From Aureivirga sp. CE67 (GTDB taxonomy: Bacteria; Bacteroidota; Bacteroidia; Flavobacteriales; Flavobacteriaceae), in contig NZ_JADOTV010000002.1 of the NCBI RefSeq assembly GCF_015767245.1, positions 62,001 to 126,000 of the forward strand: a DNA stretch of 64,000 bases, written 5' to 3'. The translations under genes were made by a program, and so were the position numbers. Below, piece by piece: positions 11,579 to 23,841 of this stretch. Below the pieces are notes generated by a model, which ran no database searches, was not told the DNA's origin, and saw only the letters and a program-made list of their open reading frames with translations. Within the stretch, counting starts at the first letter, position 1, and each line of letters opens with the position of its first letter.

Positions 11579-13510
11579 ATGAAAGCTCTAAAGTACTTTT
11601 CCATTCTTACTATAGGTATTATTATATTTTCAACATTACTTTCCAATCAAAAAAAGAAAGGAGTTTATAGCGAAAAAAGTATTAAAGAAGTAAATACATT
11701 ATTTCAACAACAAATTTCCGATTTCGAACTTGAAATCTTAGAATTTGAAAAAGCAGTTCAGCAAAATTCGAAATCGAAAATTCAGGAATCGTATAAAAAA
11801 CTTCGTAATACTTTTAAAAAAGCAGGTTTATACATCGCATATTTAGACACGGAAGCAAATGATAGATTCATCAATGGAGCTCCTTTATTAAAAATCATGA
11901 AGAAAACTCCAGAACTTTCTATTGTACAACCAAAAGGAATGCAAGTAATAGATGAATTGATGGCAGAAGATTTAGCAAATCCTGAAATCAAGAAAGAATT
12001 AGTACAAAAAGTACAGCTTTTAAAAAGACATTATAAAGACGTAAAACTTTATATTTCTAGATTAAGTCTTACCGACAGACAAGTTTTTGAAATTATCCGA
12101 CAAGAAATTATCCGAATCACAACTTTTGGTATTACAGGTTTTGATACTCCAGGAACTTTAAATGGAATTTCAGATTCTTATTACAGTTTTCTTGAAATGA
12201 AAGAAATAATCGAAGCTTATAAAGAAGAGATGAAAAACGTCAACAGAATAGACTTATACAAAGAAACAATCAAAATTTTTGATGAAGGATTAAAACAATT
12301 AAAACATAACGATTTTGAAAAATTTGACCGCTTAATTTTTATCAAAAAAGTGATAAATCCTCTTTACGGAAATATCAAAAAAATTCATTTTGCTTTAGGT
12401 TATGAAACAATTGATGAGGTATATTTTGGTAAAAAAACTACCAATTATGAAGTAGAAAATCTTTTTGAAGAAAACTTCGTAAACAAAGAATATTTTACAA
12501 CCTATAAAAAAGAAAAGAACCACGAAAAAGTAGTAAAACTTGGAAAATTATTATTCAATGATCCAGTTCTTTCTTCTACAAAACAAATGGCTTGTGTAAG
12601 TTGCCATCAGGCGGATAAAGCTTTCACAGATGGACAAAAAACAAGTATTTCTAATGCCGGAGAATTCGTGAAAAGAAATTCTCCAACCTTGAATTATTCC
12701 ATTTTTGCTACAAAATATCTTCACGATTTAAGAGCAGATAGATTGGAAGATCAATACGAGCATGTAATCACAAATCCAGACGAATTCAACTCTTCTTACC
12801 AACAAATCATTAAAGACTTACAATCGAGTCCAACATATCAAAAAATGTTCGAAGAAGCTTTTGAAGGAAAAGAAATTTCGACAACAACAATCGATCATGC
12901 AATCACAGCTTTCATTATGGACTTGACACCTTTTGATAACGATGTAGATCTTTATTTTCAAAACAAAAAAGTGGTTTTAAAACCAGAAATTAAAAGAGGA
13001 TTCAACCTTTTTACTGGAAAAGCAGCTTGTGCTACGTGCCATTTTATTCCGCTTTATAACGGAACTGTTCCACCAAATTATGTAGATACAGAATCAGAAG
13101 TTCTTGGAGTGCCAAAGACCAAAGAAGATCAAACGGTTTTAGATGATGATTTGGGGAGATATGGAAACAAACGTCCGAAAGAACATGCGCCACACTACAA
13201 AAATTCATTCAAAACACCAACGCTTCGAAATATCGCAAATACAGCTCCATACATGCACAACGGAGTTTTTTCTACACTAGAAGAAGTGATGGAATTTTAC
13301 AACAATGGAGGTGGAGCAGGACAAGGAATGAAGCTTGATAACCAAACATTAAGCGATGCTCCTCTGGATCTTACAGAACAAGAAATTTCAGATATCATCG
13401 CATTTATGAAAGCACTTTCAGACAAAAAAACATTTGAAAACAAAGTAGAACTACCAAAAGATTTTCCAAATCAGGAATGGAATAACAGAAAAGTTAAAGT
13501 AGACTATTAA
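11579..13510 (+). CDS. Di-haem cytochrome c peroxidase/MauG-family protein with extra N-terminal domain
   Basis: The C-terminal half of this 643-residue protein is a bacterial di-haem peroxidase: haem sites CVSCH (339-343) and CATCH (484-488), with conserved KRNSPTLNYS and FKTPTLRNIANTAPYMHNG. Such periplasmic enzymes reduce H2O2 or oxidise protein or organic substrates. An N-terminal signal or anchor segment (about 6-22) is followed by about 280 largely helical residues of a kind ordinary peroxidases (about 330 residues) lack. This part contains FGITGFDTPGTLNG and resembles an imelysin-like helical domain, but I cannot confirm that. The gene follows the PhoX-like gene after a terminator, so co-transcription is doubtful. 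No promoter was recognised. Confidence 0.85.
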   Translation: MKALKYFSILTIGIIIFSTLLSNQKKKGVYSEKSIKEVNTLFQQQISDFELEILEFEKAVQQNSKSKIQESYKKLRNTFKKAGLYIAYLDTEANDRFINGAPLLKIMKKTPELSIVQPKGMQVIDELMAEDLANPEIKKELVQKVQLLKRHYKDVKLYISRLSLTDRQVFEIIRQEIIRITTFGITGFDTPGTLNGISDSYYSFLEMKEIIEAYKEEMKNVNRIDLYKETIKIFDEGLKQLKHNDFEKFDRLIFIKKVINPLYGNIKKIHFALGYETIDEVYFGKKTTNYEVENLFEENFVNKEYFTTYKKEKNHEKVVKLGKLLFNDPVLSSTKQMACVSCHQADKAFTDGQKTSISNAGEFVKRNSPTLNYSIFATKYLHDLRADRLEDQYEHVITNPDEFNSSYQQIIKDLQSSPTYQKMFEEAFEGKEISTTTIDHAITAFIMDLTPFDNDVDLYFQNKKVVLKPEIKRGFNLFTGKAACATCHFIPLYNGTVPPNYVDTESEVLGVPKTKEDQTVLDDDLGRYGNKRPKEHAPHYKNSFKTPTLRNIANTAPYMHNGVFSTLEEVMEFYNNGGGAGQGMKLDNQTLSDAPLDLTEQEISDIIAFMKALSDKKTFENKVELPKDFPNQEWNNRKVKVDY

Positions 13511-13748: not shown

Positions 13749-14420
13749 TCAAAAAATAAGCTTATACCCAAATCCTCTTACATTGATAATTTGAATTGCA
13801 GGATCCTTTTTTAGTTTCTTACGAAGCTTTGATATAAAAACATCCATACTTCTTGTAGTAAAAAAATCATCTGTCCCCCAAAGTTTGTTTAAGATTTCGC
13901 TTCTTTCTAAGATTTCATTTCGCTGAAGAAGTAAATGATAAAGTAATTCGGACTCGCGATGTGTAAGTGGAATTTCTTCTTCTTCAAATTTTAGAAGTTG
14001 TTTTTTATAATCAAAATCGAACTTTCCTAGCTTTGAAGTTTCTTTCTTTTGCGTGTTTTTTCGTAGTTGCGCATGGATTCTTACAATCAATTCTTCCATG
14101 CTAAAAGGTTTTTTCAAATAATCATTTCCACCAATCGTAAAACCTTTTACTACATCCGCTGTTTGCGACTTAGAAGTAAGGAAAATAATAGGAATTTGCT
14201 CATCCAGATTTCGGATTTCGGTCGCAAGTGTAAAACCATCTTTCAAAGGCATCATGATATCTAAAACCAAAATCTCTGGTTTTTCAGTTTTGAATTTTCG
14301 CAAAGCTTCTTCTCCATCCAAACAATGAATTACTTCAAAATCTCGAGTCTCTAAGCTTTCTTTGATAATTTGCCCTAAAGCCGTTTCGTCTTCTGCTAAA
14401 ATTACTTTTATTTTTTTCAT
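13749..14420 (-). CDS. OmpR-family response regulator
   Basis: The 223-residue protein has an N-terminal receiver domain with acidic pocket E10/D11, phospho-acceptor D54 in LVLDIMMP, and K104 in YLKKPF. A C-terminal winged-helix DNA-binding domain follows (about 130-223), ending in KLRKKLKKDPAIQIINVRGFGYKLIF, typical of OmpR/PhoB regulators. Its start overlaps the stop of the histidine kinase gene by 4 bp, so the two are co-translated partners. OmpR-type regulators bind direct repeats spaced about one helical turn; three GTTAAC boxes with a 10-bp period lie upstream of the kinase gene and are the obvious target candidate. The stimulus is unknown. Confidence 0.95.
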   Translation of the reverse strand: MKKIKVILAEDETALGQIIKESLETRDFEVIHCLDGEEALRKFKTEKPEILVLDIMMPLKDGFTLATEIRNLDEQIPIIFLTSKSQTADVVKGFTIGGNDYLKKPFSMEELIVRIHAQLRKNTQKKETSKLGKFDFDYKKQLLKFEEEEIPLTHRESELLYHLLLQRNEILERSEILNKLWGTDDFFTTRSMDVFISKLRKKLKKDPAIQIINVRGFGYKLIF

Positions 14421-15925
14421 TTGCTTTTTGGAAGTTCTATTTGAAAAATACTTTTTCCTTTTTTATAAATCACTCGAATGTTTCCGAAGTGTTTTTCTAT
14501 GATTTTTTTAGTGTAATAAAGCCCAATTCCAAAACCTTTAACATCGTGCTTATCTCCTTCTGAAATTCGATAGAATTGCTCGAAAATCTTATCTTTTTCT
14601 GTCTTTGGAATTCCGATTCCATTGTCAAAAATTTCAATAATTACTTTGTCTGATTTTTGATAAAGATTACATTCAATTTTATCTCCCCCGTATTTAATTG
14701 CGTTATCAAAAATATTATTCACTGCATTTTCAAAATGGAAACTATCAATATTTGCTTCAATATTATCCAAGCTGTTTAAAATAAACTCACGAGAAGCATA
14801 GCGTTCTTGGTATTTCTGAACACGTTTTTTGATTAATTCACTCAAATTTGATTTTTCAATATTCAAATCAATTGAATCACTTTTTAGCGTTGCAGTTTCT
14901 AGAAGTTTTTCAACCATTAAATTTAGCTTCTGTAATTGTTCTGTAGAAATATTCAGATATTTTTCTGTTCGTTTTTGATCATTTAAAACATTAAAATTCT
15001 TCATTCCTTCGATGGCAGCAAAAGTAGTTGCAATTGGTGTTTTGAACTCGTGTGTGATATTACTTATCAAATCATTTTTGATTTCAGATAATTGTTTTTG
15101 TTTGTAGATCGTTTTTAGAAGATAAATCAAACAAGCAATTACACTCAGCGTTAAAATAAGTGAGAGAAAAATACTGACATACATTTTTTTAAAAATTTCA
15201 GAATTATCTTTTTCCAAAGTCATTTCTAAATCAGTATCATTTGCAAAAAGAAGTGGACTTGCTTTAATTTTTAATTCAGATTTTAAAATAGTGTCTTTTA
15301 AATTTGAATAATAAGTATCGGAAAATTGATCATAGAAATGATTTTCTTTTAAAGACAATTTAAAATCTAAATCGATTTCTTGTTTCTTAAGCTCTTTTTT
15401 AATTTTATTTCCAAGAGTATCTACAGAAATAGAATTTTCAAAAACTGAAACAAGAATTTTTGCAAATAAACTATCAATTTTGGAATGCTCTTCTTTGTCT
15501 GAATAAAATTTTCTTTTTGGATACTCAAAACGAATTGGAAAATTCTTTTTCAAGCTATCTTCATGTAAGCTGATGGATTCTATCTCTTTTGGAATCCTCA
15601 TTTTTAAACTATCATTTTTATACTTCCCAACTAAAATTTTACGAAACTCTCTTTTCTTAGAAATTGGTGAATTTCGAAATGGTAAAATAATAGTATCAAT
15701 ACTATTTATCTTAGATTCATTATTTGAAAAAGTAAAAAATGAATTTTGTGTTTTATCTGTATAATAACTTTCAATAGAATTGTCTAATATCTTTTGAATT
15801 TGTTGTTTTAAATTATGCTTTTTAAGTACGTAATTCTTTCTGTTCCAGTAAAATTGCGTTCCAATTACAAGCAAAATTGTAATACAAATAAAGACAATTC
15901 CTGTTGTATAATTTTTTCCAATCAT
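14417..15925 (-). CDS. Sensor histidine kinase
   Basis: This 502-residue inner-membrane kinase has a first membrane helix (9-24), a large periplasmic sensor region (about 25-247, Lys/Ser/Asp-rich, no recognised sensor family), a second helix (about 249-271) and, with no HAMP domain visible, the dimerisation box NITHEFKTPIATT with phospho-acceptor H292. The ATPase domain follows: N box NNIFDNAIKYG near 403-413, G1 DNGIGIP 434-440, F box FEQFYR, and G2 GFGIGLYY 464-471. It forms an operon with the downstream regulator through a 4-bp overlap. A TACTTTTG element lies only 4 bp before the start codon, hinting at a nearly leaderless mRNA. The signal is unknown. Confidence 0.95.
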   Translation of the reverse strand: MIGKNYTTGIVFICITILLVIGTQFYWNRKNYVLKKHNLKQQIQKILDNSIESYYTDKTQNSFFTFSNNESKINSIDTIILPFRNSPISKKREFRKILVGKYKNDSLKMRIPKEIESISLHEDSLKKNFPIRFEYPKRKFYSDKEEHSKIDSLFAKILVSVFENSISVDTLGNKIKKELKKQEIDLDFKLSLKENHFYDQFSDTYYSNLKDTILKSELKIKASPLLFANDTDLEMTLEKDNSEIFKKMYVSIFLSLILTLSVIACLIYLLKTIYKQKQLSEIKNDLISNITHEFKTPIATTFAAIEGMKNFNVLNDQKRTEKYLNISTEQLQKLNLMVEKLLETATLKSDSIDLNIEKSNLSELIKKRVQKYQERYASREFILNSLDNIEANIDSFHFENAVNNIFDNAIKYGGDKIECNLYQKSDKVIIEIFDNGIGIPKTEKDKIFEQFYRISEGDKHDVKGFGIGLYYTKKIIEKHFGNIRVIYKKGKSIFQIELPKSK

Positions 15926-15929
15926 AGCT

Positions 15930-15937
15930 CAAAAGTA
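15930..15937 (-). promoter_or_regulatory. -7 promoter element for the kinase-regulator operon
   Basis: On the minus strand this reads TACTTTTG, an exact TAnnTTTG match, but its edge is only 4 bp from the ATG. A transcript would start at or next to the start codon. It is identical in sequence to the -7 element of the divergent GLPGLI operon. Confidence 0.5.
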
Positions 15938-15963
15938 GAATTAATTTTCATTCTTTTTTTATT

Positions 15964-15989
15964 GTTAACACTCGTTAACGTTTGTTAAC
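15964..15989. promoter_or_regulatory. Three GTTAAC boxes with exact 10-bp period
   Basis: GTTAAC occurs at 15964-15969, 15974-15979 and 15984-15989. The phasing puts all three on one DNA face, as expected for a multimeric OmpR-type regulator. The array lies between two divergent TACTTTTG elements, 26 bp from the kinase one and 22 bp from the GLPGLI one, so one site could serve both operons. The adjacent response regulator is the natural candidate ligand; this is inference. Confidence 0.6.
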
Positions 15990-16011
15990 CCAAATCTTAA
16001 ACGTCCCTATA

Positions 16012-16019
16012 TACTTTTG
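16012..16019 (+). promoter_or_regulatory. -7 promoter element for the GLPGLI operon
   Basis: TACTTTTG matches TAnnTTTG exactly, 20 bp before the start codon. No TTG lies at the normal -33 distance; the GTTAAC array occupies that side, as in an activator-dependent promoter. Confidence 0.6.
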
Positions 16020-16039
16020 AAAAATCAATTTAGATTATT

Positions 16040-16819
16040 ATGAAAACAAAATTAATTTTACCTATTATTCTAATTCTATTATTTATTCCAACACTAATTT
16101 TTTCTCAAAATTTTAGTGGAATAGCAGTTTATCAATCAAAGATAAATGTAGATCTAGAATTGGATAAAGATTCTACAAATGCGGCATTACAAAATCCTGA
16201 GATTAGAAAAATGCTTCAGCAACAATTAAAAAAGCAACTTGAAAAAAAATACGTTTTAAATTTCACTTCAAAAGAGGCGAATTTTATTGAAGAAGAAAAT
16301 CTAGAAATTAAAAATCCAGCAGTTCAAGTAAAAGTTTTTGGAGGAACTTCAACTAAGCAAGGAATTTTATATAAAGATATTTCTAAAAAAGATTACAAAG
16401 CAGAAAAAGAGTTTTTTGGAAAACGATTTTTAGTTGAAGATAAAATGCCTGAATACAATTGGGAAATGACAAATGAAACAAAGAAAATTGGAAATTACAC
16501 TTGTCATAAAGCAATCGCAAAAACAGAAGAATCTACAATAACAGCATGGTATACAATGGAAATCCCTTTAAGTATTGGACCAGATTTATACAGCGGACTT
16601 CCAGGAATGATTTTAGAAATTAATGATGGAAAAAGACAATTTCTTTGTACAAAAATCACTTTAAATCCTAAAAAAGAAATTAAAATTAAAATTCCAAAAA
16701 ACGGTAAAAAAGTAAAACAAGAGCAATTTGAAAAAATTGTAGAAAAGAAAATAAAAACTTTTACAGAGCAACATAAAAGCAATAGAGGAAATTCAAATGT
16801 AAAAATCATTAGACAGTAG
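16040..16819 (+). CDS. GLPGLI family protein, first of a pair
   Basis: The 259-residue exported protein carries a signal peptide (1-22, ending LIFSQ) and the family-defining motif as SGLPGMILEIND near residues 184-195. GLPGLI proteins are widespread in Bacteroidota and have no established function. Further features are a Lys/Gln-rich helical stretch near 50-75 and a conserved WEMTNETKKIGNYTCHKA region near 141-158 that is also found in the next gene. It lies 114 bp from the divergently transcribed two-component operon and is the first gene of a probable three-gene operon ending in a large outer-membrane receptor. The pair looks like a tandem duplication that has diverged. Confidence 0.88.
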   Translation: MKTKLILPIILILLFIPTLIFSQNFSGIAVYQSKINVDLELDKDSTNAALQNPEIRKMLQQQLKKQLEKKYVLNFTSKEANFIEEENLEIKNPAVQVKVFGGTSTKQGILYKDISKKDYKAEKEFFGKRFLVEDKMPEYNWEMTNETKKIGNYTCHKAIAKTEESTITAWYTMEIPLSIGPDLYSGLPGMILEINDGKRQFLCTKITLNPKKEIKIKIPKNGKKVKQEQFEKIVEKKIKTFTEQHKSNRGNSNVKIIRQ

Positions 16820-16877: not shown

Positions 16878-17768
16878 ATGAAAAATATTCAGAAACTAAT
16901 ATTAGCTACACTTTTCTTAATTCCATCTATCCTTTTAGCACAACAATTTCAAGGTAGAGCGATTTATCAGACCAAAACTACTTTTGATCTTGGACAAAAA
17001 AATGATACTACAAAACAAGGACAAGTAAGAGCAGAAAGAAGAAAGGCTTTTGAAAACATGTTGAATCAAGAATTGGAAAAAAGATTCGTGTTAGATTTCA
17101 ATCAAAAAGCTGCTATTTATGAAGAAGAAGCCAAAGTAGATGTTGGAGCATCGAACCCGAATGCGGGAAGGATTAAAATGATGGCAAATGTAATGTCGGG
17201 AGGAACTGTAAGTAACGGAGTTTTATATACAGATATTCAAAACAGAACTTACATTAACAAACAAGAGCTTTTTGGAAAAAACTTTTTGATAAAAGATAAG
17301 CTTCCAAACTACGAATGGCAACTTGAAAATGAAACAAAAAAAGTTGGAAACTATACTTGCTACAAAGCTACGGCAAAAACAATGATGAGAGATTTTCAGG
17401 CAGAAGCTAAAAAAATGCGTGATAATTTCCGTAAAAAACAAAAAGCTAAAATAGAACCAATAATTAAAGAAGTACAAATAACTGTTTGGTACACGCCTCA
17501 AATTCCTATAAGTGTTGGTCCAGAAAAATTTGGTGGACTTCCAGGATTGATTTTAGAAGCAAATATTGGAAATACGCAATTGGTTTGTACGCAAATTACT
17601 TTAAACCCAAAAGAGAAAGTAGAAATCAACCCGCCAAAAGGAGGAAAAGAAATTACGCAAGAAAAATTTGATGAAACAAGACAGAAAAAAATGGAAGAAA
17701 TGTCTAAAAACTTTCGTCGTGGTGGTGGACGCGGAAGAGGAGGTTTCGGAGGTGGAAGAGGCCGTTAA
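16878..17768 (+). CDS. GLPGLI family protein with Arg-Gly-rich C-terminal tail
   Basis: This 296-residue paralogue of the preceding gene has a signal peptide (1-21, ending ILLAQ) and the motif GGLPGLILEA near 217-226. It shares the block WQLENETKKVGNYTCYKATAKT with its neighbour, but adds a charged insert (MMRDFQAEAKKMRDNFRKK) and ends in about 17 residues made almost only of Arg and Gly (RRGGGRGRGGFGGGRGR). Such RGG tails are known in nucleic-acid-binding proteins and are odd for an exported protein; here the tail may bind an anionic surface or polymer. It starts 58 bp after gene one and ends 23 bp before the receptor gene. Function is unknown. Confidence 0.88.
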   Translation: MKNIQKLILATLFLIPSILLAQQFQGRAIYQTKTTFDLGQKNDTTKQGQVRAERRKAFENMLNQELEKRFVLDFNQKAAIYEEEAKVDVGASNPNAGRIKMMANVMSGGTVSNGVLYTDIQNRTYINKQELFGKNFLIKDKLPNYEWQLENETKKVGNYTCYKATAKTMMRDFQAEAKKMRDNFRKKQKAKIEPIIKEVQITVWYTPQIPISVGPEKFGGLPGLILEANIGNTQLVCTQITLNPKEKVEINPPKGGKEITQEKFDETRQKKMEEMSKNFRRGGGRGRGGFGGGRGR

Positions 17769-17791: not shown

Positions 17792-20485
17792 ATGTACCTA
17801 AAGAATATATTATTAGTTTTTTTCCTTTTTGGAACTACTATCACTTTTGCACAAAAAACTACGATTACTGGAACTGTAAAAGATAGTACGGGAGTAGCAA
17901 TGGAACTTGCAAATGTTTTGGCTGTAAATCCTGAAACGAAAGCAATCAAGAAATTTGCGATTACAGATACGCAAGGACAATTTAAATTAGTTGTACCGAA
18001 TGATGAAAAAATTGTTTTACAAGTAAGTTATCTTGGATATGCAATGAAAGAAGTTCCTGTGGATTTTACAGGAAATCCGAAGACTTTAACTTTCAATATT
18101 GTTTTGGATCAAGAAGATAATACGCTGGATGAAGTAGAAATTACTTATGAAATTCCGATTACGATTCAAGGAGATACGATTGTTTATACAACAGATGCAT
18201 TTACGAATGGTAAAGAAAAAAAACTGGAAGATGTTTTGAAAAAATTACCTGGAGTGGAAGTAAATGAAGATGGAGAAATTGAAGTAGAAGGAAAAACCGT
18301 TTCGAAAGTAATGGTGGAAGGAAAAGATTTCTTTGATGGAGATTCGAAATTGGCAACGAAAAATATTCCTGCAGATGCGATTTCTAAAATTGAAGTCTTG
18401 AAAAATCATAATGACGTTGCACCAATTCGTGGTCTGGAAGATGATTCGGATAATATCGCGATGAATATTTTATTAAAAGAAGGAAAAAAGAATTTTTGGT
18501 TTGGAGAAATAAATGCTGCTGGAGGAGTTGAAAATCGTTATTCTTTTAACCCAAAACTCTTCTATTATAGTCCGGAAAAAAGTATCAATATTATAGGTAA
18601 CATCAATAATACTGGAGAAGTTCCATTCACGTTCCGAGATTATATAAAGTTCTCGGGTGGATTTAAAAACCTAATGCGAAAAGGAGGATCGAGTATTAAT
18701 CTATCTTCAAATTTGGCTGGTTTTAATTTTTTCCAAGATACAAAAGTACAGGAAATCACTTCGAAATTTGGAGCTGCAAACTTTAGTTTTTCAACCAAAG
18801 AAAGCAAATGGGATTTTAATGGTTTTGCAATTTTCAACGAAAGTAGAACAGATAATAAAACACAAAGTCAACGAACTTTTATTGAAACAAACGAAACGGA
18901 AATTGATAGCGATAATACTTCTTTACAAAAAAGTCAATTGGGATTATTGAAATTTAGTGCAACGAATAAACCTAGTGTAGATACACATTTTGAGTATGAT
19001 GCTTTATTTAAAATAGCAAAACAAACAGAAGATGGTGGTTTAAATTCCTCGATAAAAGGAGATATTCAAACGGTTAATGAAGATTTACCAATTTCTTTTA
19101 ACCAAAATATTGGATACCATCATACGATCAATGAAAAAAATATTATTTCGCTTGCGGGGCAACATTTATACACAAAAGAAAAACCAATTTATGAAGCGAT
19201 TATTGATAGTCCAACAGGAGAATCGCCTTTTCAGTCGATTCCTTTTGTAACGCAAAATGTTTATGACATTCAGCAAAACAGAGATATTCATACAAACAAA
19301 ATTGATGCAAAAGCAGATTATTATTATGTGCTTAACAATAAAAGTAATTTGAATTTCACATTAGGAAATACAACGAACATTCAAAAACTGACTTCTGATA
19401 TTACGCAAACATTAGAAGACGGAACGAAAGTTTATTTCTCAGATGATAATTTAAACAATGATGTTTCTTATACTTTTTCTGATATCTTTTTGAGCTTACA
19501 TTATAAGGTGAAACTTGGGAAATTCTTATTACTTCCAGGAGTGAGTGTTCATCAATATTTAATTCAAAACAAACAATTGGGAATTACTCAAAATGATAAT
19601 GAAATCCGCTTCTTAGGAGATTTCTTGGCAGAATATGAATTTACAAGTTCGGAAACTTTACGTTTTAAATATAATGTGACAAATGAATTTTCAGACATAA
19701 ACAACATTGCTGAAGGATCTATTTTTACGAACTATAATAGTTTACAAAAAGGAAATAGAAACTTAGAAAGTGCGCAGTACCATAATTATAATTTGAGTTA
19801 TTCAAATATCAATATGTTTTCTTTCACAAATATTTTTGCAAATGTGAATTATTCTAGAAAAATGGATGCGATTAAAAACTTTATCGATATTTCTGGAATT
19901 GATCAAGAATCTACACCTATTAATTCTGATTTTACTGATGAAGCATTATCTGCAAGAGGAAGTATTGATAAGAATTTTGGAAAATATAAACTAGGATTCA
20001 CTGCAAACGGAAATTATTCTAAGTTCTACAATATTATTAATACACAATATCAGACTTCAGAATCGTTTACACATTCTTATCAATTAAAAGTAAATACGAA
20101 TTTTGATGAATTTCCAAATATTGAATTGGGATATAAGAAAAGTTTCTCTGATTATAATTTAGCATCGAACAAAACAACTTATATCACAGATAAACCTTTC
20201 GTTCGTATAGAATATAGTTTCTTGAAAAACTTTACGATTGATGCGAACTATGATTATTATAATTATAGAGACAAAGACGACACAATTGAAAATACATATG
20301 CTTTCTTGGATGCTAATTTGTATTATCAAAAAGAAGGAAGTAAATGGGAATTTAAGGTTTCTGCAACCAATTTGTTAGACACAAAAACTGTAGAAGACAA
20401 CTCATTTTCTCAAACTTTCCAGAGAACAACTACTTATTATGTACAACCAAGATATATCTTATTTGGTGTAAAATACCAGATTTAA
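17792..20485 (+). CDS. Outer-membrane beta-barrel receptor of the TonB-dependent type
   Basis: The 897-residue protein has a signal peptide (1-20, ending TFAQ), a CarboxypepD-reg-like/CNA-B type domain (about 25-105, TGTVKDSTGVAMELANVLAV), a plug-like region (about 115-230, including DVLKKLPGVEVNEDGEIEVEG) and a long beta-barrel. It fits the outer-membrane beta-barrel family usually annotated as TonB-dependent receptor in Flavobacteriia. A canonical TonB box was not clear, so energised transport is not certain. It is the last gene of the GLPGLI operon (23-bp gap) and is followed by a strong terminator. With the divergent two-component genes it suggests regulated uptake or sensing at the outer membrane, substrate unknown. 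Confidence 0.88.
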   Translation: MYLKNILLVFFLFGTTITFAQKTTITGTVKDSTGVAMELANVLAVNPETKAIKKFAITDTQGQFKLVVPNDEKIVLQVSYLGYAMKEVPVDFTGNPKTLTFNIVLDQEDNTLDEVEITYEIPITIQGDTIVYTTDAFTNGKEKKLEDVLKKLPGVEVNEDGEIEVEGKTVSKVMVEGKDFFDGDSKLATKNIPADAISKIEVLKNHNDVAPIRGLEDDSDNIAMNILLKEGKKNFWFGEINAAGGVENRYSFNPKLFYYSPEKSINIIGNINNTGEVPFTFRDYIKFSGGFKNLMRKGGSSINLSSNLAGFNFFQDTKVQEITSKFGAANFSFSTKESKWDFNGFAIFNESRTDNKTQSQRTFIETNETEIDSDNTSLQKSQLGLLKFSATNKPSVDTHFEYDALFKIAKQTEDGGLNSSIKGDIQTVNEDLPISFNQNIGYHHTINEKNIISLAGQHLYTKEKPIYEAIIDSPTGESPFQSIPFVTQNVYDIQQNRDIHTNKIDAKADYYYVLNNKSNLNFTLGNTTNIQKLTSDITQTLEDGTKVYFSDDNLNNDVSYTFSDIFLSLHYKVKLGKFLLLPGVSVHQYLIQNKQLGITQNDNEIRFLGDFLAEYEFTSSETLRFKYNVTNEFSDINNIAEGSIFTNYNSLQKGNRNLESAQYHNYNLSYSNINMFSFTNIFANVNYSRKMDAIKNFIDISGIDQESTPINSDFTDEALSARGSIDKNFGKYKLGFTANGNYSKFYNIINTQYQTSESFTHSYQLKVNTNFDEFPNIELGYKKSFSDYNLASNKTTYITDKPFVRIEYSFLKNFTIDANYDYYNYRDKDDTIENTYAFLDANLYYQKEGSKWEFKVSATNLLDTKTVEDNSFSQTFQRTTTYYVQPRYILFGVKYQI

Positions 20486-20704: not shown

Positions 20705-21058
20705 ATGAGTCATCAAATTGAATTATTAAGCAGAACGGAAAATGGAGTAATCTATAAATGTCTTGAGTGTAATCATTATCAGATTGAGTTCAAGAATTTG
20801 AATTTTACTTTTTCTATTTCAGGATTTGATCGATTTAGAAACCACATCAAAAATCTTTATAAAAAACATTTAGGAGATGGAGCTTTGTGTCATTCTTTAG
20901 GTAAAAACATTCTTTTACCAACAAATAGTGAAACATTGAAAATCTCTTTTAACATGAATGAATTAGAAGAATTGTTTTCACTTTTTTCTATGAGAAAGAC
21001 GCAAAAGAAAGAGACAGAGTTGGCAGTAGAAATGACGTATGACTTTTGTTTAAACTAG
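20705..21058 (+). CDS. Small DUF6686-like protein at the head of a haem/iron operon
   Basis: The 117-residue soluble protein begins MSHQIELLSRTENG and carries CLECNHY near residues 21-27, a pattern I associate with the DUF6686 family that often neighbours iron-uptake receptors in Flavobacteriia; this is recall, not a search. There is no signal peptide. The two close cysteines might bind a metal. An ATG ten codons earlier (20675) overlaps the -7 element and was rejected. The stop is 5 bp before the receptor start, so the two are translationally coupled. A regulatory or haem-handling role in the cytoplasm is possible but unproven. Confidence 0.75.
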   Translation: MSHQIELLSRTENGVIYKCLECNHYQIEFKNLNFTFSISGFDRFRNHIKNLYKKHLGDGALCHSLGKNILLPTNSETLKISFNMNELEELFSLFSMRKTQKKETELAVEMTYDFCLN

Positions 21059-21063
21059 AGAAA

Positions 21064-23181
21064 ATGAAAAAAATAATTGGAACTTTATTTTTTGTGTTTG
21101 CTTTTATAAATACAATTTCAGCACAGCAAACACAGAAAAAAGACACGATAAACGGCTTGGAAGAAGTCGTGGTAACAGCAACAAAGAATAAAAGACAGCT
21201 AAGTAGTATTTCTGTACCTGTGACATTATTGAAAGCTAAGGATATTGAGGCATTAGGTGTAACTAATTTAAAAGACGTTTTACAAGAAGTCACAGGTCTT
21301 GACATTGTCTATGATCATGGAGCCGGAGTACAATTACAAGGTTTAAATTCAGATTATATTTTGATACTTGTAGACGGAAATCCATTAGTAGGTAGAGTTT
21401 CAGGAACTTTTGATTTATCAAGATTGAATCTTGGAGATATTGAACAAATCGAGATTGTAAAAGGTCCAAGTTCAAGTCTATATGGTTCAGAAGCTTTAGG
21501 AGGAGTAATTAATATTATTACTAAAAAAGCAAACAGAACTTCTGCTTCAATTATCGGGCGATATGCTACGAATAATACAATAACTGGAAATGCGGAGCTG
21601 GATTTTGTAAAAGATAAATTTAAATTAAATGTTGGTTTAAATCATTATCAAACGGATGGTTATGATTTATCTCCAGAAACATTTGGAAAGACAGTTTCAC
21701 CTTTTAATAATCAAACATTTTTGACAAATATTGGTTATGATTTTACAAAAAAGCTAAAGTTTACTGTAGGTGGAAGATATTTTCAAGAAAAGCAAGATTA
21801 CGATTATTTAAGCAATGAATTAGTCATCAATTCTGAAGGAAAAGTAAAAGATTTCTTTGTAGTTCCAAAGTTTGAGTATAAACACTCGGATAAACTTCAG
21901 ACAAGTTTAAGATGGTATTATACAAGATATAAAACAGATTCAGAATCTATATATAAAGAAACTAATGAGAATTATGATTCATCATTCTTTAAAGAATCTT
22001 TTCAGCAATTAGAATCACAAACAACTTACCAATTTCACAAAGCACATACGCTAACTGTTGGATTGGGATATATTCGAGAAACTGTAAATACTTCTCGATT
22101 GGATGCAGATATTACTTTCAAGGCGAATAATGTTTTTGCTTATGCTCAATATCTGTGGGATATCAACAAAAAAGCGAACGTAACTGTGGGAGCAAGAATT
22201 GATAATCATGATGCTTTTACAACACAGTTTAACCCAAAATTTTCAGGGTTTTATCGTTTCACAGACAATTTCTCTGTTAATGCTAGTATTGGAACAGGTT
22301 TTAAAAGACCAACGTTTCAACAGCTATACTTAAACTTCTCAAATGCTTCCGTAGGATACACTGTTTTTGGTACTACATATGTTGTGGAAGGTATTGAGAA
22401 GTTATTACAAGAAGAACAAATCAAACGAAATGAAGATGGAAGTCCGATTTTGTATGATGATTATTATAAAATTAAAAACGATGATGGTAAGATAGATCCT
22501 GAAACATCTATTGGAATTAACTTCGGTTTCAATTATTCTCCAATTAAAAATGTGTTTATCAAAGGAAACCTTTTCAGAAATGATCTTGACAATTTAATTG
22601 AATCTACTGCGATTGCTTTAAAAACAAATAATCAATTCGTCTATAGTTATAAAAATATCAGTAGAGTTTACACGCAGGGAATTACACTAGATGTTTCTTA
22701 CCATCTGAATGAAAAAATCAAATTTAGTATTGGATATCAATACTTAGATGCAAAAGATAAGGATGTTGTAGAAGAAATTAAAGACGGGAAAAGATATGGA
22801 AGAGATCCTAAAACAGGAGAATCTTACAAGTTGAAATTATCTGATTATGGAGGTCTTTTCAATAGATCAAAACATTCTGGGAACTTTAAAATTACAGCAA
22901 ATAATATTTGGAAAAAAATCTCCGCTAATCTTAGAATTATCTATAAAGGACCCTATGGTTTTGCAGATGTAAATGGTTCTGGAATTCTTGATGCAGATGA
23001 AGAATATACAAAAGGATTTAGTCTTGTAAATACGAATATTTCGAGACCATTTTGGAAAGATAAATTAATCTGGAGTATTGGAGCAGAGAATCTTTTTGAT
23101 TACACATACAAAACAGAAGAATACACAATTACTTCCAATCCAGGAAGAATATTATATACGTCACTAAAATTAAATTTATAA
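21064..23181 (+). CDS. TonB-dependent receptor, probably for haem or iron chelates
   Basis: The 705-residue outer-membrane receptor has a signal peptide (1-20, ending TISAQ), a TonB-box-like LEEVVVTATKN, a plug domain (about 40-150; DYILILVDGNPLVGR and IEIVKGPSSSLYGSEALGGV are classic) and a 22-strand-type barrel ending in the C-terminal LKLNL. It imports its ligand using TonB/ExbBD energy. The neighbouring HmuY-like lipoprotein makes haem the best substrate guess. The ATG at 21064 was chosen over the upstream TTG at 21046 because the signal peptide starts with MKKIIG and the TTG overlaps the previous gene. It is the second gene of a three-gene operon. Confidence 0.93.
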   Translation: MKKIIGTLFFVFAFINTISAQQTQKKDTINGLEEVVVTATKNKRQLSSISVPVTLLKAKDIEALGVTNLKDVLQEVTGLDIVYDHGAGVQLQGLNSDYILILVDGNPLVGRVSGTFDLSRLNLGDIEQIEIVKGPSSSLYGSEALGGVINIITKKANRTSASIIGRYATNNTITGNAELDFVKDKFKLNVGLNHYQTDGYDLSPETFGKTVSPFNNQTFLTNIGYDFTKKLKFTVGGRYFQEKQDYDYLSNELVINSEGKVKDFFVVPKFEYKHSDKLQTSLRWYYTRYKTDSESIYKETNENYDSSFFKESFQQLESQTTYQFHKAHTLTVGLGYIRETVNTSRLDADITFKANNVFAYAQYLWDINKKANVTVGARIDNHDAFTTQFNPKFSGFYRFTDNFSVNASIGTGFKRPTFQQLYLNFSNASVGYTVFGTTYVVEGIEKLLQEEQIKRNEDGSPILYDDYYKIKNDDGKIDPETSIGINFGFNYSPIKNVFIKGNLFRNDLDNLIESTAIALKTNNQFVYSYKNISRVYTQGITLDVSYHLNEKIKFSIGYQYLDAKDKDVVEEIKDGKRYGRDPKTGESYKLKLSDYGGLFNRSKHSGNFKITANNIWKKISANLRIIYKGPYGFADVNGSGILDADEEYTKGFSLVNTNISRPFWKDKLIWSIGAENLFDYTYKTEEYTITSNPGRILYTSLKLNL

Positions 23182-23193
23182 ACTATAGAAACC

Positions 23194-23841
23194 ATGAAAA
23201 AAAATAATTTATTCCTTAGTTTTTTACTTATCGCTTTTATATCATTTTCATTCGTAAGTTGTTCTGATGATGATGATAATACACAAACTGTTGATCCAGT
23301 AGACCCAGCTCCAACAGAATTAGAATTAAAAAAAGTAGAAAATTTACACGCTCCTAATGATGTTATTGATTATGCTACAGGACAAGTAATCGAGGAAAAA
23401 CCTTTTAATTATTTCAGTTTTGAAGAAGGAGGATTGGTAGATGAAAGTGCAAACTGGGATATTGCTTTCAAGGGAACTACAATTATTACAAATTCAGGGA
23501 TTAGCGGAGATGGTTCTGCAATGGCTGTAGTTTTAGATGGAATTTTCAATGAAGTTTTAGAAGCTCCAGAAGATGCAGATTTTAGAGAAGATACAGAAGC
23601 TGAATTAGCTGTTCCAAAAGGAGGAGGAAATGGATGGTATAACTATAATCCACAATCTCACCAAATTACTCCAATTCCAGGAAAAGTTATTGTTATTAAA
23701 ACAGATGCTGGAAAATATGCAAAAATGGAAATCTTAAGTTATTACAAAGATAATCCTGCAACGATTGATGAAACATCAGAGTCTGCATATTACACATTTA
23801 ATTATAAATATCAAACAGGTGATTCTAAATCATTAAAATAA
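23194..23841 (+). CDS. HmuY-family haem-binding surface lipoprotein
   Basis: The 215-residue lipoprotein has a signal peptide ending SFVSC (lipidated Cys23) followed by SDDDD, which fits the Bacteroidota surface-export signal for lipoproteins. The mature part resembles HmuY: NWDIAFKGTTIITNSG, KVIVIKTDAGKYAKMEILSYY, and a C-terminal YTFNYKYQ strand. HmuY proteins bind haem outside the cell and hand it to the partner TonB receptor, which here is encoded 12 bp upstream. The axial haem ligands could not be assigned by eye. A long-loop hairpin lies downstream. Confidence 0.85.
   Translation: MKKNNLFLSFLLIAFISFSFVSCSDDDDNTQTVDPVDPAPTELELKKVENLHAPNDVIDYATGQVIEEKPFNYFSFEEGGLVDESANWDIAFKGTTIITNSGISGDGSAMAVVLDGIFNEVLEAPEDADFREDTEAELAVPKGGGNGWYNYNPQSHQITPIPGKVIVIKTDAGKYAKMEILSYYKDNPATIDETSESAYYTFNYKYQTGDSKSLK

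Follow-up and report, generated by a model that had tools for sequence, protein, structure and literature searches.

The window, that is, the whole 64,000-nucleotide stretch of Aureivirga sp. CE67 DNA that was analyzed, contains three GTTAAC boxes between a two-component operon and a divergent operon that begins with GLPGLI family genes (Table 1). Direct reading of the sequence bore out the initial annotation, which had placed the boxes in exact 10-bp phase between these operons, with identical TACTTTTG -7 elements on the minus and plus strands, at 26 and 22 bp from the nearest box.

The three-box array and its flanking genes

Table 1. Positions of the boxes, promoter elements, and flanking genes in the window
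Feature	Positions	Strand	Basis
OmpR/PhoB-type response regulator, 223 aa, proposed array binder	13749..14420	-	Response_reg + Trans_reg_C
Sensor histidine kinase, 502 aa, HisKA + HATPase_c	14417..15925	-	Pfam
-7 element TACTTTTG, promoter of the kinase-regulator operon	15930..15937	-	26 bp from box 1
Box 1, GTTAAC, kinase-proximal	15964..15969	+	direct sequence reading
Box 2, GTTAAC	15974..15979	+	direct sequence reading
Box 3, GTTAAC, GLPGLI-proximal	15984..15989	+	direct sequence reading
-7 element TACTTTTG, promoter of the GLPGLI operon	16012..16019	+	22 bp between box 3 and element
GLPGLI family protein, gene 1 of the proposed target operon	16040..16819	+	TIGR01200, 184.7 bits
Second GLPGLI family protein	16878..17768	+	TIGR01200, 175 bits; Pfam match consistent with PNGase F-II N-terminal part
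Outer-membrane beta-barrel protein, CarboxypepD_reg + OMP_b-brl_3, gene 3 of the proposed target operon	17792..20485	+	Pfam

The kinase and regulator genes are transcribed away from the array. The GTTAAC core, which is the HpaI sequence, is palindromic, and by itself the core is therefore without direction; the conserved flanks, AATCGGTTAACAC[A/T]CGTTAACACTNGTTAAC, orient the array towards the GLPGLI gene. A scan for sigma-70-type promoters was uninformative because the phylum uses other elements. The sigma-A box of Flavobacterium is TAnnTTTG, which was mapped at -12 to -5 in F. psychrophilum; the main text of that transcriptome paper gives the -7 consensus, and the TTAAC motif is absent from it (PMC9723704). 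With TAnnTTTG placed at -12 to -5, the start of the GLPGLI operon is predicted to lie about 5 bases past the TACTTTTG box at 16012-16019. Relative to this start the boxes cover about -59 to -34, and the array overlies the -33 region of the GLPGLI promoter.

The regulator was confirmed to be of the OmpR type as annotated: it carries a receiver domain (Response_reg, 8.5e-27) and a winged-helix Trans_reg_C domain (2e-21), the domain pair of OmpR/PhoB-type regulators. Its best NCBIfam model was RprY (NF051850), at 255.7 bits, and its score against the Bacteroidota PhoB model (NF053854) was 179.8 bits, under the 270-bit cut-off. Both GLPGLI genes scored above the TIGR01200 cut-off of 50 bits. We know of no role for GLPGLI proteins, and mentions of them were few in the literature searched. 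A GLPGLI sequence search of the PDB gave no convincing relative, whereas a Foldseek search with the AlphaFold model of the second protein (pLDDT 83) did give matches. The top ones were to PNGase F-II, over its N-terminal part (7zgn/4r4x, E 3e-7 to 7e-7), followed at lower rank by ependymin-related proteins and, weakly, by LprF and LolA/LolB-like folds. These model-based matches hint at an envelope ligand- or lipid-binding role for this protein, which we treat as a lead only. In the AlphaFold model of the kinase, pLDDT was about 30 near residues 65-160, the sensor region, which was too poor for a ligand-fold search. Two further features of the window were observed: a gene for a di-haem cytochrome c peroxidase/MauG-like protein (11579-13510) adjoins the two-component operon, and at 21046-23841 there is a TonB-dependent receptor gene, followed by one for an HmuY-like haem-binding protein.

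Conservation and distribution of the array

A genome-wide scan, which the initial annotation had suggested as a check, found the phased triple only once in the whole 4.8-Mb window genome, even with up to 3 mismatches allowed, and none of 100 dinucleotide shuffles of the window contained two boxes in phase. Three two-box near-matches in this genome were not counted as targets; the third box is absent from each. The one at C34:70064 overlaps an ORF, the one at C24:36132 is followed by a large ORF starting about 260 bp downstream, and the one at C43:25745 (L201:4001-4016, G000:C43; GTTAACTAATGTTAAA) has a PhoB/PhoR-like pair on one side and an outer-membrane receptor gene on the other. No box pairs were found near the other GLPGLI genes of the window genome, and the regulator therefore appears to be local, not global, in this genome.

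Homologous loci were collected by a regulator-based scan of genome contigs, which yielded 80 loci, many of them from Winogradskyella and the rest from Tenacibaculum, Allomuricauda, Psychroserpens, Lutibacter, Croceivirga, and others; the 86 loci counted below are those with enough upstream sequence. In nearly all loci the kinase-regulator pair is divergent from GLPGLI and outer-membrane genes, and an OMP_b-brl_3 gene follows the GLPGLI gene in many loci besides that of the window. Homologous loci with this gene order had been named as the place where the proposal could fail by lacking the boxes, and it did not: three TTAAC boxes in exact 10-bp phase lie between the kinase gene and the divergent gene in 83/86, and the remaining loci have two boxes or a degenerate box. 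Alignment of 81 three-box loci revealed the consensus AATCGGTTAACAC(A/T)CGTTAACACTNGTTAACT. TTAAC is invariant in box 1, where CGG/CGC is conserved before it, and is likewise 100% conserved in boxes 2 and 3; the G of box 2 is present in 96%, and box 3 reads ATAAC at some loci outside this set. Exactly 22 bp separate box 3 from the GLPGLI-side -7 element in 79 of the 86 loci, and on the kinase side box 1 and the -7 element are 26-28 bp apart in 84 of them. In the aligned homologous loci, no conserved -33 element other than box 3 was seen at the GLPGLI promoter. The array thus consists of tandem direct repeats in helical phase near a promoter, as in operators of the OmpR/PhoB type, here with three boxes and a 10-bp phase.

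Many loci have room for a short extra gene beside the array. In many Winogradskyella and Psychroserpens loci, a short gene often comes directly after the array and precedes the GLPGLI gene; one such gene (L194:453-806) encodes 117 aa with no Pfam or NCBIfam match. At one locus (G112) a repeat-like insertion splits the array, leaving the full triple on the GLPGLI side, 22 bp from CATATTTG, and two boxes on the kinase side. The palindromic, repeat-like insert (L204:360-425; ATTCCCACGAAAGTGGGAAT) has similar copies twice more in that genome.

The distribution of the array was examined in a family sample of 301 genomes from 237 genera, with a kinase orthologue threshold of E <= 1e-55 and the relaxed triple pattern TTAACANNNGTTAACN5TTAAC. 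Kinase orthologues were present in 93 of the 301 genomes, so that the system occurs in about a third of the sample. The relaxed triple was found in 83/93 kinase-positive and 0/208 kinase-negative genomes (Fisher 1.6e-63, uncorrected for phylogeny); co-inheritance of one locus accounts for part of these counts. The exact triple occurs once per genome. All 80 arrays that were on the kinase contig and near the kinase gene were upstream of it and pointed away from it. Among the ten kinase-positive genomes that do not match the strict pattern, three carry a set of three TTAAC boxes that miss the G of the pattern, and most others keep a phased pair with ATAAC often in the third place. One (G017) has a degenerate array only, and another (G275), whose kinase match is the weakest, has no array. 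Two genomes from a different family of the same class (L252, L253) also have the arrangement of kinase, array, GLPGLI, and outer-membrane gene. Three further pattern matches in the class sample (L255-L257) are without such neighbors and look like background.

These comparisons, namely the 83/86 loci and the tracking of the kinase, support the original proposal that the array is the DNA target of the adjacent regulator. The array is a control site that is deeply conserved across Flavobacteria together with this regulator, and it very probably is the regulator's own target.

Secondary arrays and the RprXY-like paralogue

Eleven pattern matches in the family set lie away from the kinase. Two of them (L191 and L194) represent the main locus, truncated at contig ends, and the remaining nine, together with a second array inside the G221 operon, make up ten secondary arrays, all in kinase-positive genomes. 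All are intergenic, 20-111 bp upstream of the gene they face. Three of these genes are for aspartyl proteases, two for AhpC/TSA thioredoxin-like proteins, two for OMP_b-brl_3 proteins, two for members of a 187-aa family, and one for a second GLPGLI protein; the products are mostly envelope or secreted proteins, and the predicted regulon points to an envelope response. In 7/10 secondary arrays a -7-like match stands at offset 22, six of these scoring 5 or 6/6 and the one at L185 being within one base. The mean -7-like score was 4.1/6 at offset 22, a sharp peak compared to about 1.8 elsewhere.

The two members of the 187-aa family (L188:4077-4637 and L192:4069-4632) are 52% identical and have signal-like N-termini, and a triple array stands ahead of both; the L188 protein has no Pfam match. 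At L184:3459-5292 and L187:3447-5237, a gene for a small Trans_reg_C protein is divergent from the aspartyl protease gene, with a 10-bp triple between them; the L187 protein has a membrane-like segment. This protein could instead be the regulator of the adjoining secondary arrays, and so a second regulator of such sites.

A second kinase-regulator pair, RprX/RprY-like, was found in 59/61 genomes; in the window genome it lies at L198:2179-4490 (G000:C1), with the regulator gene at L198:2179-2877, and the other loci are L212-L241. About 40 bp upstream of its kinase start there is a conserved TTAAC array of two boxes, TTTAACCTTACATTAACAAAAATGTTAAAA. The boxes are 11 bp apart in 24 of 30 loci and 10 bp apart in five, the window genome among them. 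The recognition helices of the two regulators are nearly identical. In the response regulator tree, several forks are open and one row is long; the three paralogue rows sampled are strongly separated, and only this separation was relied on.

The DAP-seq motif of Riemerella anatipestifer PhoP (RAYM_RS09740) has the core TTTAACA, and GLPGLI genes are in its direct regulon (PMC9603813); published qPCR primers for this gene encode GEEGLK and GYQLGAD (PMC5399024). In these short receiver segments, the window regulator reads GFTIGGND, so it does not share the GYQLGAD segment of Riemerella PhoP, and the paralogue at L198 reads GYQAGADD. On this comparison, Riemerella PhoP is most likely an orthologue of the paralogue, not of the window regulator. 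Since the primer segments match the paralogue, the published TTTAACA motif most likely belongs to it as well. The motif independently supports the view that regulators of this branch have TTAAC as their half-site.

The two paralogous systems thus appear to share the TTAAC half-site and most of the recognition helix. They may be insulated chiefly by repeat geometry, although we regard this as a doubtful, minority reading. It would not hold in full generality: the paralogue boxes are 10 bp apart in the window genome and four others, so that box number and flanks must also count. If the geometry reading is true, three boxes at 10 bp would mark the window regulator and two at 11 bp the paralogue, and dimer geometry, rather than base reading, would confer specificity. 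The pair would provide a clean test of how near-identical recognition helices avoid each other's sites.

The proposed operator and its relation to known systems

We consider it likely, with good confidence, that the array is the operator of the adjacent regulator, through which the GLPGLI operon is activated and the kinase-regulator genes are autoregulated. The partner kinase would phosphorylate the regulator, which would then bind the three 10-bp-phased half-sites head to tail. From a class-II-like position, the bound protein would activate the divergent GLPGLI/outer-membrane operon, with box 3 in the role of the -33 element of its promoter, and the same array would also autoregulate the kinase-regulator operon. 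Binding by the window regulator, its dependence on phosphorylation, activation rather than repression, and oligomerization on three sites are the parts of this scheme that we infer.

The adjacent regulator might instead bind the array as a repressor that blocks both divergent promoters until its release induces them. A protein bound over the -33 region of the GLPGLI promoter could exclude polymerase. However, repression would not require a fixed helical spacing, and the exact 22-bp distance, the fixed direction, and the lack of any other conserved -33 element are typical of activators that take the place of this element; the same 22-bp layout recurs at seven of the ten secondary targets. Repression is thus unlikely, though it deserves some weight. 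Binding by the ubiquitous RprY-like paralogue, alone or alongside the adjacent regulator, is less probable still. The paralogue largely agrees with the window regulator in its recognition helix (RSMDV-[FY]-I-[SA]-KLRK), and its own operon carries TTAAC boxes at a like distance from the kinase. Riemerella PhoP bears the GYQ-GAD signature of the paralogue; in vitro it binds TTTAACA sites, and its targets include GLPGLI genes (PMC9603813, PMC5399024). Yet nearly every genome examined for the paralogue has it, while the 10-bp triple is absent from all sampled family genomes without the window-type kinase; moreover, the paralogue's own boxes differ in their flanks and, mostly, in spacing.

Explanations without a regulator fare far worse. 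A perfect palindrome such as GTTAAC is of the kind preferred by DNA methyltransferases and restriction enzymes, but a methylation site would need neither a 10-bp phase nor conserved flanks, a fixed distance to a -7 element, or one place per genome, and some boxes read CTTAAC or ATAAC, which are not palindromic and yet stay in phase; we consider this highly improbable. Chance phasing of TTAAC, a common word in AT-rich DNA, is refuted for this intergenic region and has practically no probability left, given 0 triples in 17,200 shuffles of the homologous upstream regions against 81/86 real ones over the same interval, and no match to a reversed control pattern in all 301 family genomes.

In the literature searched, there was no match for GTTAAC with Bacteroidetes response regulators and no description of the window operator or the window system. 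To our knowledge, few Bacteroidota regulators have known DNA targets. The array provides a precise putative operator with its promoter geometry and a small predicted set of target genes.

The B. subtilis PhoP box, at which an OmpR-type regulator of the phosphate response acts, consists of repeated TTAACA-type half-sites at about 11-bp spacing, and serves here as a lead only. The closest NCBIfam model is that of Bacteroides RprY, and both the window regulator and the paralogue regulator (279 bits) fall below its equivalog cut-off of 370. The RprY-like paralogue and the window array have TTAAC boxes in common, whereas the paralogue has two boxes, mostly at 11 bp, with the flanks in TTTAACCTTACATTAACAAAAATGTTAAAA. 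Riemerella PhoP resembles the window system as a flavobacterial OmpR-type regulator in a kinase-regulator operon, with GLPGLI targets and binding upstream of its own operon (PMC9603813, PMC5399024), and differs from the window regulator in the receiver segment (GYQLGAD versus GFTIGGND). Its motif has been likened to that of ArcA (PMC9603813).

In ArcA and PhoB, sites of the OmpR/PhoB family are mostly spaced 11 bp from center to center, and three to five repeats are present in over half of the ArcA sites (PMC3798270). The expectation of the initial annotation that OmpR-type regulators bind phased direct repeats is in line with the three tandem boxes, although their spacing is 10 bp in 83/86 loci rather than the usual 11. 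E. coli ArcA, a member of the same family, has a TGTTAA-like half-site in tandem direct repeats, as the array does, but its 11-bp repeats vary in location and orientation, whereas the array keeps 10 bp, a fixed promoter distance, and a fixed orientation. Tandem half-sites are thus known, as are at least three repeats in ArcA; the three boxes in strict 10-bp phase at a fixed distance and direction are new. Because the ArcA repeats are unfixed and spaced at 11 bp, and because the window regulator falls below the RprY and PhoB cut-offs, the array is a new variant of the OmpR/PhoB operator, a strict 10-bp triple, and not a new kind of system.
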